In this document: positions 11,129 through 20,781 of the stretch, piece after piece
How the letters are laid out: each line of letters begins with the position of its first letter
Position numbering within the stretch: position 1 is the stretch's first letter
Source of the DNA: a virus
Strand: one strand, 5' to 3'
DNA: 22,424 nt
Virus record (IMG/VR): IMGVR_UViG_3300021962_000707
Coordinates: 1-22,424 of that record
Made by a program: the position numbers and the translations under genes
Notes under the pieces: generated by a model
The model's database searches: none
Seen by the model: the letters and a program-made list of their open reading frames with translations, nothing else
What the model was told of the DNA's origin: nothing

Positions 11129-12049
11129 TTATTCTGCTTCAGCAATTTTCTGGAAGTAAGACATCACGTCAGCGTCATCGTCAGAATCTGCATTCTTTGT
11201 TGCCAAAGCAGGAGCAGGTTTGCTCGGTGCAGGTTTAGCGACAGCTACTGGTTCGTCATCCATATCTGCAGCACGTTTAGTGCTTGGAGCCGACTCACCA
11301 CTTAACACATCGTTAAGACGTTTTTGAAGTTCTTCGAAAGATTTGAACTTATCAGGTGAGACAAATTCAGAAAGTTTATGTTGTTTTCCTACAACTTCCA
11401 ATAGTGCAGATTCTTCACCACTGTGTAATGCAGCAGGTTCCATAAACGCAGACTGATCATAGTTAGAATAACCATCTACTTTACGCATTCTGATTTTAAA
11501 GTCAGCACCTTCCCAAAGATCGAAAACGTTTACTGGCTTTTCATCTTCGAAAGTTGGACGTGCTTTGTCCATAATCTTATCAAAGATTTTCTTACCAAAC
11601 TTGAACAGTTTTACTTGTCCTTCGTTTTCTGGATGTTTAGGATCTGAAATCACTAGTACGTTAGCAATATAACCAAGACGTCTCTTTTGTTTTCGAGCGA
11701 TCTCTTTATTTGCTTCAATACCAGAGTTCCATAGTTTTGAATTTAATTCTCCGACAGGATCTTTTCCACCGATAGTAGTCAATGAGTTTTCAATGTACCA
11801 CTTACCAGTTGGTCCTTGGAATCCATGAGAAAATACTCGTACCCATGGTAGTTCGTCACCCTCAACTCGAGGTAGGAAACGAATTACTGCAGTTGCATTA
11901 CCAGCTTTATCTGGATCAAGTCTCCAGAATCTAGTATCTTCGTTTGAGTTTTGGGATTGTGTTGCTTGAGGGTTCGCAAGTTTTTCGAATTCGCCAGCAA
12001 TTTTGCTGAAGTCATCATTGCGAAGTTTCTTAAGTGTATTAATATCCAT
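11129..12049 (-). CDS. gp32: Single-stranded DNA-binding protein gp32
   Basis: A 306-aa homologue of T4 gp32 (301 aa). The N-terminal basic B-domain contains LKKLRNDDFSKIA, the core has FLPRVEGDELPWVRVFSHGF, GKWYIE, YIANVLVISDPKHPENEG, FGKKIFDKI and KVDGYSNYDQS, and the C-terminal tail is acidic (DSDDDADVMSYFQKIAEAE) for partner binding. It coats single-stranded DNA during replication and recombination. The T4 zinc ligands are lost: H75 is kept but the three cysteines are replaced (IENSLTT, KDPVGEL), and the whole protein has no Cys. GGAG precedes the ATG. The leader is G-poor with five ACATA copies, consistent with autogenous translational control as in T4. A middle-type promoter overlaps the gp59 stop. 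Confidence 0.95.
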   Translation of the reverse strand: MDINTLKKLRNDDFSKIAGEFEKLANPQATQSQNSNEDTRFWRLDPDKAGNATAVIRFLPRVEGDELPWVRVFSHGFQGPTGKWYIENSLTTIGGKDPVGELNSKLWNSGIEANKEIARKQKRRLGYIANVLVISDPKHPENEGQVKLFKFGKKIFDKIMDKARPTFEDEKPVNVFDLWEGADFKIRMRKVDGYSNYDQSAFMEPAALHSGEESALLEVVGKQHKLSEFVSPDKFKSFEELQKRLNDVLSGESAPSTKRAADMDDEPVAVAKPAPSKPAPALATKNADSDDDADVMSYFQKIAEAE

Positions 12050-12114: not shown

Positions 12115-12732
12115 TCACATACCCATAATATTTAGTTCCGATAAATCACGACGAAAAATATCGAAACCTTTTCCCAGCTTTGCACTAGGGAATTTTACAA
12201 AGCCACTTGTTTTGACAACTCGTTTAGCATCATCTTCAAAGATGATATCGCTAGACTTCCAGTTATCAAAGAATGGTCTGTAACTGTTAAGGATTACCAA
12301 ACTTTGCACTGCTACCTTTCGTCCAAGTAACAGTTTAAACACTTCTGGTATTCCCTTTTCCTCAAAATCAAATAGAGAAGTAATCTCTTTTCGATTCTTT
12401 TCACAATGTAATGTAATTACATCGAGATCGTTTTGGAAACTTTGAGATAATGATTCCTTGTATTTTAACCAAGACTTCCAGTAATCATCACCGACACTAC
12501 CAGTATAGAGTACGCTATCATTTCCATAAGATAAATTGGAAACGAAATACTCAATACATTCAAATGGTGTCTTAAATCTTTTACCAAGTTTTTCATATAA
12601 ACCCATATCATTTCGTTGCGTGTAACTAGCATAAGGTTTTCTCCCTACATTTGTCGTAAAGGCATCAAAGGAGTAGTTCCGATAATGCAGTTTAATACGT
12701 AGGTGTAATTTGTATACTTCATAACCATTCAT
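12115..12732 (-). CDS. gp59: Replicative helicase loader gp59
   Basis: A 205-aa protein, size and position matching T4 gp59 (217 aa). The N-terminus GYEVYKLHLRIKLHYRNYSFD matches the T4 KSVYKLYLMIKQH region, and the rest is helical and basic (YFVSNLSYGN, IPEVFKLLLGRKVAVQSLVI), consistent with the two-domain HMG-like/helical fold of gp59. The protein loads the gp41 helicase onto gp32-covered forks and contacts gp32, which is encoded next. Its ATG overlaps the gp33 stop (TAATG), implying coupled translation. A CTAAATA motif lies in its last codons. Confidence 0.8.
   Translation of the reverse strand: MNGYEVYKLHLRIKLHYRNYSFDAFTTNVGRKPYASYTQRNDMGLYEKLGKRFKTPFECIEYFVSNLSYGNDSVLYTGSVGDDYWKSWLKYKESLSQSFQNDLDVITLHCEKNRKEITSLFDFEEKGIPEVFKLLLGRKVAVQSLVILNSYRPFFDNWKSSDIIFEDDAKRVVKTSGFVKFPSAKLGKGFDIFRRDLSELNIMGM
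12129..12135 (-). promoter_or_regulatory. Possible late promoter motif CTAAATA before gp32
   Basis: CTAAATA inside the gp59 C-terminal codons, about 80 nt before the gp32 ATG. T4 gene 32 also has late transcription; here the motif may be chance. Confidence 0.25.
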
Positions 12733-12962
12733 TACATATCCAGCTTAGCTGTTTTAGGTAAGTAGTTCAAGTCCTGATAACAAACTTCTAATTTCTCTTT
12801 AAGTGGTCCTTTGATTAGATGTTTGATATCAGAGGGTTCGATAAAATTTACTTCACAGTACGCAATGATTGCATCTAAATGAGTAAAGCCACCATTCTTA
12901 CCTTTGTTGATAACTTCCTTTTCGATATACATTGCAAAGTTTTGAGCATCTTTAAAAATCAT
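12732..12962 (-). CDS. gp33: Late transcription co-activator gp33
   Basis: A 76-aa protein in the gp33 position upstream of gp59. It has the typical composition and pattern: LDAIIAYCEVN in the middle, a conserved LIKGPLKEKLEVC helix, and a C-terminal DLNYLPKTAKLDM segment that in gp33 binds the sliding clamp. In T4, gp33 bridges RNA polymerase beta-flap and gp45 clamp and with gp55 directs late transcription. Its ATG overlaps the upstream stop (ATGA) and its stop overlaps the gp59 start. It is shorter than T4 gp33 (112 aa), as in other marine T4-like phages. Its presence fits the CTAAATA late motifs. Confidence 0.8.
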   Translation of the reverse strand: MIFKDAQNFAMYIEKEVINKGKNGGFTHLDAIIAYCEVNFIEPSDIKHLIKGPLKEKLEVCYQDLNYLPKTAKLDM

Positions 12963-17414: not shown

Positions 17415-17650
17415 GGTAGGTTATTCTGTTGCCAAGAAACCTACCGAAACTCCGTCAGCCTAAATTAGGCAGCAAGTGCAAAGTTTTCGTTTGCGTTTGT
17501 GTTTTGCTGTCATCTCGTCTGATCTTCGTAAACCTGTCGAACCTAAAATCACCCCCATCATAAGCACACTCAGTAAATGTGTTTATGGTGGAGGTGGTGG
17601 GAATCGCACCCACGTCCAAGTATCTTCCAAGCAGAGTCATCAACTCAAGC
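17415..17650 (-). ncRNA. ssrA: Circularly permuted (two-piece) tmRNA, tag ANENFALAA
   Basis: Order on the minus strand: acceptor piece (about 17650-17586), 29-nt intervening segment (17585-17557), coding piece (17556 to about 17415). The acceptor piece ends with a T-arm GTGGG-TGCGATT-CCCAC (17613-17597), the 3' strand CACCTCC (17596-17590), A and an encoded CCA (17588-17586). The coding piece starts GGGGGTGATTTTAGGTTCGA, the classic tmRNA 5' end. GGGGGTG pairs with CACCTCC over 7 bp including G3-U70, the alanine identity element. The tag frame (17494-17465) reads GCA AAC GAA AAC TTT GCA CTT GCT GCC TAA, giving ANENFALAA, with a ClpXP-type LAA end; its stop lies in a GCCTA/TAGGC hairpin. A GGTAGGTT/AACCTACC stem (17445-17415) closes the coding piece. 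Exact termini and P2 pairing are not resolved. Confidence 0.93.
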
Positions 17651-17654
17651 ATAT

Positions 17655-17661
17655 TATTTAG
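17655..17661 (-). promoter_or_regulatory. Late-type promoter motif CTAAATA before the tmRNA
   Basis: CTAAATAATATG on the minus strand puts a transcription start near 17648, at the inferred 5' end of the acceptor piece. TTGCAAGAAA further upstream resembles the gp32 promoter region. Confidence 0.5.
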
Positions 17662-17688
17662 TATATTCTTTAATTTCTTGCAAGTAAA

Positions 17689-17826
17689 TCAGGCAGTTCC
17701 TCTGCTCTTGTAATACTTGTAAATCTTAACGTAATATTCAAAACACTTAGGATACATTTCTGGATTAGGAAGTTTAATTCCACGTCTTTCCCAATATGAT
17801 AGAAACTCTTGTATCTCTTTCTCCAC
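17689..17826 (-). CDS. Small conserved protein, 45 aa, GTG start
   Basis: An open frame from GTG 17824-17826 to TGA 17689-17691 encodes 45 residues (VEKEIQEFLSYWERRGIKLP, then NPEMYPKCFEYYVKIYKYYK). The aromatic-rich NP..YP.CFEYY pattern is coding-like and familiar from short proteins of T4-like phages. The frame is closed 9 nt upstream by a stop, no ATG exists, and no SD is visible; GTG lies 4 nt after the 162-aa gene's stop, so translation is probably by re-initiation. Function unknown. Confidence 0.7.
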   Translation of the reverse strand: MEKEIQEFLSYWERRGIKLPNPEMYPKCFEYYVKIYKYYKSRGTA

Positions 17827-18327: not shown

Positions 18328-19608
18328 CTATACTCTCGTTGAGTTCATATAACCTTTGAGTGTTTCTTCCATTGCTCTTTTAGAAGCATAAACATCATCT
18401 AGTAAATTATAAACTCTGGTTTTTAATTCTGTAAAATAGTTATCATTGGCAATAGTTGGTACTACCAATTTTATTTGATCTGCTGCAGTTGTTGCTGCAA
18501 GACCAGCATTTGATAGTTTAGCTAAACTTACGTCAATACCAAAGGTATTAATACCCATAAAAGATCCTTGTCTTACGAATCCATCGGATAAACCTTTTTG
18601 TACTAACTCATTACCTAATGCATCTAACTGTTCGCCAATATACTTATGTTTGTTATCTTCAATGTGTTGAATATGTTCCATCAAACAAATATGTGCAGCA
18701 ACTACACCATTCATTGTAGGTTGCCACGTATGTCCGTGTTCCCATGTCTTACTAGCAATCATACTTGAAACTTTATCATTATGTAAACTAGCACTTAAAG
18801 GAACATAACCATTCGTAAGTGATTTACCAATGGTAATAATATCTGGTCGAATAGACAAATACTGATGTGTAAATAGTCTTTCGTTCTTACCGAAACATCC
18901 AGCTACATCATCCAATATAAAAAGAATATCGTATTCGTCTACAAGTGCTTCAATGTCTAGCCAAAACTCTTTACTGTAGGGAGCAATTTGATCATTCCAA
19001 GGTATCGATTCTAATATAATCGCACCTGTCTCTTTACTGTGTGTTTGTAGATACTCTTTAAGTTTGGCTATCTTATATAATTCGTTTGCACGTTGGTCTT
19101 TAACATCCTCCCAACGTTTACCAAGAATAACTCTTGTTCTATTAAACTCAGACCATCCACTATAGTTTGGTCTTTCTAATTCTGTTGATAATGTCTTTGT
19201 GGTATACGTTGTTCCGTGATAACAAGGAGCAATTGATATAATGTATGGACGATGTGCACCTTTAGAAGTCCAGTAACGATCCACAGCATTAATTGCTGAT
19301 TCGTTAGCATCACTACCACTTACAGCATAAGCAATAGATTTCATATTAGAAATATTGCATAATAAATCTGAAAGAGAATCTACTAATTCAGAAGACTCTC
19401 CAGTATTACCTCGAACAAAATCAACCTTATTGTCAAAGATGTGTTGTTTTAGTTTATTATGATTATACCCTAAAGTAAATGCAGCATTACCAGATTGAAT
19501 TTCGAGGGATTTAGAACCTCCCTCGTATTCAATCCAATAATCGTATGTAGCAATAACTTTCTTATTGCTCTCACCAAGACTAAAAGGTTTTAGTTCGTTG
19601 TTTAGCAT
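18328..19608 (-). CDS. Class III (BioA/GSAM-fold) PLP-dependent aminotransferase
   Basis: A 426-aa fold-type I aminotransferase of class III. Seen in order: AVSGSDANESAINAVDRYW (PLP phosphate loop, about 96-113), CYHGTTY (Y130, H131 stacking on PLP), ILESIP (about 198-203), ILDDVAGCFGK with D233 for the PLP ring nitrogen, and DIITIGKSLTNGYVP with the Schiff-base lysine K262. The usual DEVQTGFGR is altered to DDVAGCFGK, so it is divergent from BioA, ornithine and glutamate-1-semialdehyde enzymes and its substrate cannot be named. Length is normal. Its ATG overlaps the peroxiredoxin stop by 7 nt. It is an auxiliary metabolic or modification gene; it could also modify a phage component. Confidence 0.88.
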   Translation of the reverse strand: MLNNELKPFSLGESNKKVIATYDYWIEYEGGSKSLEIQSGNAAFTLGYNHNKLKQHIFDNKVDFVRGNTGESSELVDSLSDLLCNISNMKSIAYAVSGSDANESAINAVDRYWTSKGAHRPYIISIAPCYHGTTYTTKTLSTELERPNYSGWSEFNRTRVILGKRWEDVKDQRANELYKIAKLKEYLQTHSKETGAIILESIPWNDQIAPYSKEFWLDIEALVDEYDILFILDDVAGCFGKNERLFTHQYLSIRPDIITIGKSLTNGYVPLSASLHNDKVSSMIASKTWEHGHTWQPTMNGVVAAHICLMEHIQHIEDNKHKYIGEQLDALGNELVQKGLSDGFVRQGSFMGINTFGIDVSLAKLSNAGLAATTAADQIKLVVPTIANDNYFTELKTRVYNLLDDVYASKRAMEETLKGYMNSTRV

Positions 19609-20123
19609 ACTGTTTTTAAATGCGCAATCATTTGGTCAGCATCTGATACAAAGAATGGATCGTATGGACAGTTATCCATTAGATCTGGTTCTTTGAAAAT
19701 CGCTTTGACTTCCATGTTGTCAACCAACATAGAATATCTCCAGCTACGATGTCCGAATCCAAGATTACGTTTATCTACTAGCATACCCATAGACTTCGCA
19801 AAGTCTCCATTTCCATCAGGCAACAACTTTGTATGAACAAGGTTTTGTGACTTCGCCCATTGATGCATTACAAACGCATCATTAACAGACGTACACCAAA
19901 CTTCGTCAACACCAAGATCTTTAAACTCTTGATGACGTTGTTCATATTCAGGTAGTTGTGAGTTGGAACAGGTAGGTGTGAATGCTCCAGGAAGACCAAA
20001 AATTACAACTTTCTTATTCGCAAACAAATCATTTGTATGCTTATAAACCCACTTGTAAGGATTGTCTCCACCGATCGATTCATCACGCTCTCGCATGTAG
20101 AATAAAACATCTTGTAGTTTCAT
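19602..20123 (-). CDS. Peroxiredoxin, Prx5-type
   Basis: Start at 20123, where GGAAGGGA precedes the ATG; the longer frame lacks an SD. The 173-aa product has the Prx5-group active site FGLPGAFTPTCS with P45, T49 and peroxidatic C52, followed by LPEYEQRHQEFKDLGVDEVW, SVNDAFVMHQWAKSQ, LPDGNGDFAKSMGM and GFGHRSWRYSMLVD (active-site Arg). These reduce peroxides using thioredoxin, glutaredoxin or glutathione. Further cysteines (CTS after the core, NCPYDPFF, and the C-terminal VC) may act in resolution. It would protect the infected cell from oxidative damage. It begins 1 nt after the exonuclease stop and overlaps the aminotransferase start. Confidence 0.92.
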   Translation of the reverse strand: MKLQDVLFYMRERDESIGGDNPYKWVYKHTNDLFANKKVVIFGLPGAFTPTCSNSQLPEYEQRHQEFKDLGVDEVWCTSVNDAFVMHQWAKSQNLVHTKLLPDGNGDFAKSMGMLVDKRNLGFGHRSWRYSMLVDNMEVKAIFKEPDLMDNCPYDPFFVSDADQMIAHLKTVC

Positions 20124-20124
20124 C

Positions 20125-20781
20125 TTATATTCCCTTCCATTTTTTATATTCAATTCTCAGCTTTTTAAAGCCATCGATATAGTCATCTCGCTTACCCTCA
20201 AAGATGTCAATGCCTTGATCTTTGACAGACATAATAATTAACATTCTTTCAATGGGTCTTCCAAATAATTCTTCAAAACAAACAGCATAAGCAGATGTTT
20301 GCATAAAGTAGTTCGCAATCATCTCCCTCGTTTTTGGTTTTGAAGAAGTTTTAAAGTCAATGACTGATAACTTACCCTCATACTCAGCAATACAATCCAC
20401 TGTTCCAGCAACACCTAAGTGATCGCTGTACAGCTTATCTTCTAAGCAGTGAATGTTATTGATTTTGTGGAGGTAAGGTTTAATATGTGTGAATTCTTCT
20501 TGATCAAAGATGTCCGAAGTATCACCTTTATTAGATAGATAATCTTCACACAGTTTGTGAATGCTTGTCCCACGTTTTGCTGCACGAGTAGATATCTCGT
20601 TCGCAACTTTGGCACCAACTCTATCTCGCCATTCTTGAATGGCTTTTTTGTTTAGTAATCCAGTTACAGAAGTTACGGATGGATAGGATTTACCAGATGG
20701 TGTCTGATAAACCCTACCATGTTCTCCGTCTATTCTTTGTAACGTAGGAAAGTTATGTTCAATGTGTGTAAATTTCATCAT
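20125..20781 (-). CDS. PD-(D/E)XK exonuclease, MGME1/RecB-nuclease type
   Basis: A 218-aa nuclease with the RecB/MGME1 pattern: TSVTGLLNKK, GTSIHKLCEDYL (H75), GVAGTVDCIAEY (D129), LSVIDFKTSSKPK (D142 and K144) and QTSAYAVCFEELFG (Q161, Y165). These residues form the metal-dependent exonuclease centre of single-strand-end exonucleases. It likely acts in phage recombination or host DNA degradation. The promoter at 20785-20813 puts the transcription start at or within 1-3 nt of the first ATG codons (20781 and 20778) and no SD is present, so the message may be leaderless. Confidence 0.85.
   Translation of the reverse strand: MMKFTHIEHNFPTLQRIDGEHGRVYQTPSGKSYPSVTSVTGLLNKKAIQEWRDRVGAKVANEISTRAAKRGTSIHKLCEDYLSNKGDTSDIFDQEEFTHIKPYLHKINNIHCLEDKLYSDHLGVAGTVDCIAEYEGKLSVIDFKTSSKPKTREMIANYFMQTSAYAVCFEELFGRPIERMLIIMSVKDQGIDIFEGKRDDYIDGFKKLRIEYKKWKGI

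Follow-up and report, generated by a model that had tools for sequence, protein, structure and literature searches.

A circularly permuted tmRNA gene with a T4-late-type promoter box in a virus with T4-like genes

Two-piece tmRNAs of T4-like phages and the gene in the window

The tmRNA frees stuck ribosomes and marks their unfinished proteins for destruction. A two-piece ssrA was described by Buchholz and co-workers in 2022 for the T4-like phage Melnitz, and a count of the tmRNA types of public phages yielded 53 two-piece tmRNAs, 50 of which are from marine or aquatic phages (PMC9004378). The window, i.e., the whole stretch of 22,424 nucleotides that was analysed, is a virus record with T4-like genes (gp33, gp32, a PD-(D/E)XK exonuclease, and PhoH). 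In light of the ssrA of Melnitz and the 53 published two-piece phage tmRNAs, its tmRNA gene belongs to an already known kind.

Like the window, Methylophilales phage Melnitz (MZ577097) contains a permuted tmRNA between the exonuclease and the gp33/gp59/gp32 block, and a late box (there TATAAATA) at the same place. However, it differs in its tag (ANDNYVPVDYALAA), a strong TTGACA -35 hexamer, a glutamine riboswitch after the tmRNA, and a bS21 gene that lies elsewhere in the genome. The Pelagibacter phages Mosig (MT647606) and HTVC008M (NC_020484) also have a permuted tmRNA and a phage bS21, but their tags are GEDNFALAA and ANFNEYALAA, respectively, they are without an NTAAATA box at the usual place, and their bS21 genes are far from the tmRNA. 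The position of the tmRNA beside the exonuclease is common to the window, Melnitz, Mosig, and HTVC008M. Small AT-rich alphaproteobacteria and a few betaproteobacteria share with the window the permuted architecture, the G3-U70 pair, and related tags. In contrast to the window with its spacer of 29 nt, SAR11-like cellular tmRNAs mostly have a 12-nt spacer, the alphaproteobacterial tmRNA genes tested have no late-type box, and cellular permuted tmRNAs reach much higher model scores.

The complete circularly permuted tmRNA gene of the window extends on the minus strand from the promoter box at 17661 to 17415 (Table 1). A preliminary description had proposed a phage-encoded permuted tmRNA in this interval without giving the strand, and had suggested an Infernal search with Rfam models as a check. 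The proposal was confirmed by ARAGORN, which independently called a tmRNA with the tag ANENFALAA, and by cmscan, in which two models scored above their gathering scores, namely RF04321 (permuted tmRNA; 92.2 bits, E 5.8e-17, gathering 47, full length 1-213 matched) and RF01849 (alphaproteobacterial tmRNA; 77.6 bits, E 8.5e-20, gathering 50, GGCAACAGAA 3' loop present). The folding energy of the tmRNA stretch has a z of -3.0. The individual parts were also found as described before: the acceptor piece with CACCTCC-A-CCA lies 5' of the coding piece and is separated from it by the 29-nt spacer, all seven pairs of the acceptor stem GGGGGTG/CACCTCC are present, including the G3-U70 wobble, and the resume frame has an Ala resume codon, a hydrophobic Ala-Ala end, and a stop codon (GCA...GCTGCCTAA). 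The loop of the 3'-terminal hairpin is the alpha-type end motif GGCAACAGAA, as in the alpha consensus.

Table 1. Positions of the tmRNA parts, the putative promoter elements, and selected genes in the window
Feature	Position	Strand	Basis or remark
PD-(D/E)XK exonuclease	20125..20781	-	PHROG 298, E 1.9e-72; conserved upstream neighbour of the tmRNA in related phages
Weak sigma-70-like element TTTACT-N17-TATACT (9/12)	17660..17688	-	overlaps the late box
Putative T4-late-type promoter box CTAAATA	17655..17661	-	sequence and position only; starts 76 nt before the CCA end
Acceptor (3' tRNA-like) piece, ~64 nt	17586..17649	-	ARAGORN, Rfam models; 5' end placed from the box
T-arm of the acceptor piece	17613-17597	-	
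3' acceptor strand CACCTCC	17596-17590	-	followed by discriminator A
CCA of the acceptor piece	17588-17586	-	CACCTCC-A-CCA = 17596-17586
Intervening segment, 29 nt	17557..17585	-	expected to be excised
Coding piece, ~142 nt	17415..17556	-	ARAGORN, Rfam models
5' acceptor strand GGGGGTG	17556-17550	-	start of the coding piece
Opening sequence of the coding piece, GGGGGTGATTTTAGGTTCGA	17556-17537	-	
Tag reading frame GCA...TAA, GCAAACGAAAACTTTGCACTTGCTGCCTAA, ANENFALAA-stop	17465..17494	-	ARAGORN
3'-terminal hairpin GGTAGGTT/AACCTACC, loop TCTTGGCAACAGAAT	17415..17445	-	RF01849 alignment, fold
Ribosomal protein bS21, 99 aa	17086..17385	-	PF01165, E 4.5e-16; PHROG 21469
Late promoter regulator/coactivator gp33	12732-12962		
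gp32	11129-12049		

Conservation, tag, and host lineage

When the 80 contigs with the most closely related exonuclease genes were compared, many of them short, 31 were found to carry a permuted tmRNA beside this gene. An IMG/VR scan with one acceptor pattern found at least 120 stretches, and most loci among the matches listed carry a permuted tmRNA according to ARAGORN. The preliminary description had named a lack of conservation of the tag and the acceptor stem in related phages as a sign of a decaying remnant. The stem is conserved in the sense that the viral copies show paired changes and keep G3-U70 (GGGGGTG/CACCTCC, GGGGGCG/CGCCTCC, GGGGCTG/CAGCTCC, GGGCCTG/CAGGTCC, GGGGAAG/CTTCTCC); because the script for this analysis misplaces the acceptor stem in 22 of 86 viral sequences, use was limited to the G3-U70 pattern of those copies that aligned well. 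The T-stems are likewise compensated among the window, Mosig, HTVC008M, and Melnitz. In contrast, the exact tag ANENFALAA was found at no other locus compared. The RNA body is strongly diverged: with RF04321 the window reaches 92 bits versus 132-166 bits in cellular genes (132-142 in SAR11-like genomes), and with the alpha model 78 versus 224-247 bits. This divergence together with the conserved location points to a long viral history of these tmRNAs rather than a recent capture. In a tree built from about 145 aligned sites of the tmRNAs, support was too low for the window to be placed.

Most tags of the relatives follow the pattern A-N-x...[FY]A[LMI]AA, and nearly all viral copies have a tag that ends in [LMI]AA or VAA. 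Nine-residue tags are found in SAR11-like alphaproteobacteria (ANESYAIAA, ANESYALAA, ANDKFALAA, ANNKFALAA, ANEQFALAA), a label that was assigned from a genome size of 0.8-1.6 Mb, about 30% G+C, and an alpha-type tmRNA, while betaproteobacteria with a permuted tmRNA have the tags ANDENFALAA, ANDERFALAA, and ANDEHFAIAA. The tag of the window has the ALAA end and the length of nine residues of the small AT-rich alphaproteobacteria (ANEQFALAA, ANDKFALAA). Several viral copies carry the tag ANESYALAA, which is identical to SAR11-like cellular tags. For one of them (L017) the RNA body scored only 84-97 bits, and these copies suggest that the viral tag is held to the form of the host.

A SAR11 host, as assumed before, was not upheld by the comparison. 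The beta tmRNA model gave 83.4 bits for the window, 0.6 below its gathering score of 84, against 77.6 bits with the alpha model, and those contigs whose exonuclease and gp32 come closest (e.g., L144 and L147) carry beta-type tmRNAs. The recommended comparison with SAR11 tags showed that ANENFALAA is one change away from ANEQFALAA, but it is also one residue shorter than the betaproteobacterial ANDENFALAA. Therefore, the tag does not settle the host, which may belong to an alpha- or a betaproteobacterial lineage.

The low model scores, which make a reduced or altered function possible, would also be expected for a decaying remnant of a captured host ssrA, derived, for example, from an integration site. 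However, every core part is intact, the stems covary across the viral copies, the location is kept over distantly related phages, and the promoter is of the phage type, so that this explanation is largely refuted and has very little probability left. The divergence from cellular genes would also fit with a decoy, i.e., a phage RNA that binds host SmpB or ribosomes and thereby dampens trans-translation of the host. Such a role has been suggested for the mycobacteriophage DS6A, whose tmRNA consists of the tRNA-like domain only (PMC4131195). No SmpB was found in the three complete relatives Mosig, Melnitz, and HTVC008M, with a control search that worked in 10 of 14 genomes. Their lack of smpB is in line with a decoy; it also means that a phage with a working tmRNA would have to use the SmpB of the host. 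A decoy would not need a tag, and thus the tag frame, stop codon, resume region, and 3' hairpin retained in the window, as well as the endings kept in nearly all viral tags, argue against this role, which we regard as improbable compared to an intact tmRNA.

The promoter region

The late-type CTAAATA box that had been noted before the acceptor piece gained strong comparative support. The following counts are not fully independent, because the viral contigs are related to one another. Of 52 dereplicated viral tmRNAs of the permuted type, 37 have [ACT]TAAATA at a distance of 60-100 nt upstream of the CCA end, most often 74-78 nt, where a Markov model of these stretches predicts 4.1 by chance, and 24 of the 52, including Melnitz, have a TTGACA-like sigma-70 -35 hexamer 16-17 nt upstream of the box (chance 0.1). 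A late-type box at that position was found in none of 43 cellular tmRNA genes. Counted across the window, CTAAATA is no more frequent than expected by chance, and therefore the placement of the sites was used instead: seven of the eight other sites are followed within 120 nt by a gene in the same orientation (p 3e-7).

The weak sigma-70-like element of the window occupies the site of the TTGACA-N16/17-TATAAATA of its relatives. As judged by its sequence, the composite viral element can be read in two ways, as a sigma-70 promoter or as a T4 late box. This double reading could explain why the promoter of the Melnitz tmRNA was called early by its authors, who used BPROM (PMC9004378). Early transcription is indeed plausible for the viral copies with a -35 hexamer. 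However, the -35 hexamer of the window (TTTACT) is weak, its sigma-70-like match on its own is no better than chance, and the late-type box is at the usual place. Early transcription is thus rather unlikely, and late transcription is the better guess for the window. Viral permuted tmRNAs seem commonly to have a T4-late-type box some 75 nt ahead of their CCA end, which in many cases is fused to a sigma-70 -35 hexamer. This promoter pattern looks new, as no description of it was found in the literature searched.

Gene neighbourhood and proposed function

The minus strand of the window encodes, in this order, PhoH, an M15 endolysin, the exonuclease, a peroxiredoxin, a class-III aminotransferase, a 162-aa protein, a 45-aa frame, the tmRNA, bS21, a 97-aa protein, and a cell wall hydrolase, and further down gp33, a gp59-like protein, and gp32; the name gp59 reflects the gene order of the relatives and not a match to a protein family. 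This matches the ssrA locus of T4-like phages, in which the tmRNA is downstream of the exonuclease and upstream of the hydrolase/gp33/gp59/gp32 block, and the order exonuclease, tmRNA, hydrolase, gp59-like gene, gp32 is common to contigs such as L026 (plus gp33) and L041. The aminotransferase and the peroxiredoxin between exonuclease and tmRNA (18328-20153) distinguish the window from Mosig, HTVC008M, and Melnitz, and two small genes are also inserted there. The 45-aa open frame (17689-17826, minus strand) has a GTG start followed by EKEIQEFLSYWERRGIKLPNPEMYPKCFEYYVKIYKYYKSRGTA, stops immediately ahead of the promoter of the tmRNA, and has the look of a genuine small gene. The DNA neighbourhood of the window had no close match among sequenced phages.

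The bS21 gene starts 30 nt past the 3' end of the tmRNA and is preceded by the ribosome-binding site AGGAG (17394-17390). No terminator-like site was found between the two genes on the minus strand, and they are probably co-transcribed. Among the sampled viral contigs this adjacency is restricted to the window, and the use of bS21 as a query returned no related contigs. The bS21 of the window has an extended N-terminus. In two phage contigs (L160:7679-7909, L167:2798-3028), the interval from the exonuclease to the gp59-like gene contains a bS21 gene, and a tmRNA was not detected in it. Structured RNAs are recurrent near viral tmRNAs, i.e., glutamine riboswitches (L003:4355-4403, after the Melnitz tmRNA; L087:5124-5172) and manA RNAs (L002:9376-9583, Mosig; L123:3180-3387, directly after the tmRNA). 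None is near the tmRNA of the window, and a glutamine riboswitch like that of Melnitz is absent from the window in a search down to E = 10.

Taken together, it is very probable that the window encodes an intact, functional-looking phage two-piece tmRNA that would use host SmpB and would be made at least late in infection. We infer its function, including the timing of transcription, processing, charging, and rescue, as follows. The late transcription machinery of the phage, with the coactivator gp33, would start at the CTAAATA box, so that the 5' end of the precursor would nearly coincide with that of the acceptor piece. The 29-nt spacer would be removed by tRNA-processing enzymes of the host, and the two pieces would be held together by the acceptor and neighbouring helices. 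The AlaRS of the host would charge the RNA via G3-U70, and host SmpB would deliver it to ribosomes that have stalled on truncated late mRNAs. With GCA as the resume codon, translation would continue and append ANENFALAA, a putative ClpXP-type degron, and the ribosomes would thereby be freed for the synthesis of virion proteins.

A wider reading can be put forward only tentatively. The permuted tmRNAs of T4-like phages may represent an old viral lineage equipped with a composite promoter of its own, whose T4 late box coincides with the sigma-70 -10 element and which might keep ribosome rescue running under phage control from early to late infection, and in the window the tmRNA and bS21 may be transcribed as a single unit by which the ribosome of the host is adjusted.

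The window bears out that a ribosome-rescue RNA is a lasting component of the genomes of T4-like phages whose hosts are streamlined aquatic bacteria. The fixed position of the promoter yields a direct and testable prediction of when the tmRNA is made, and is relevant to the early expression that its authors suggested for the tmRNA of Melnitz. Should bS21 and the tmRNA form one unit, phage control of translation would span from initiation to rescue.
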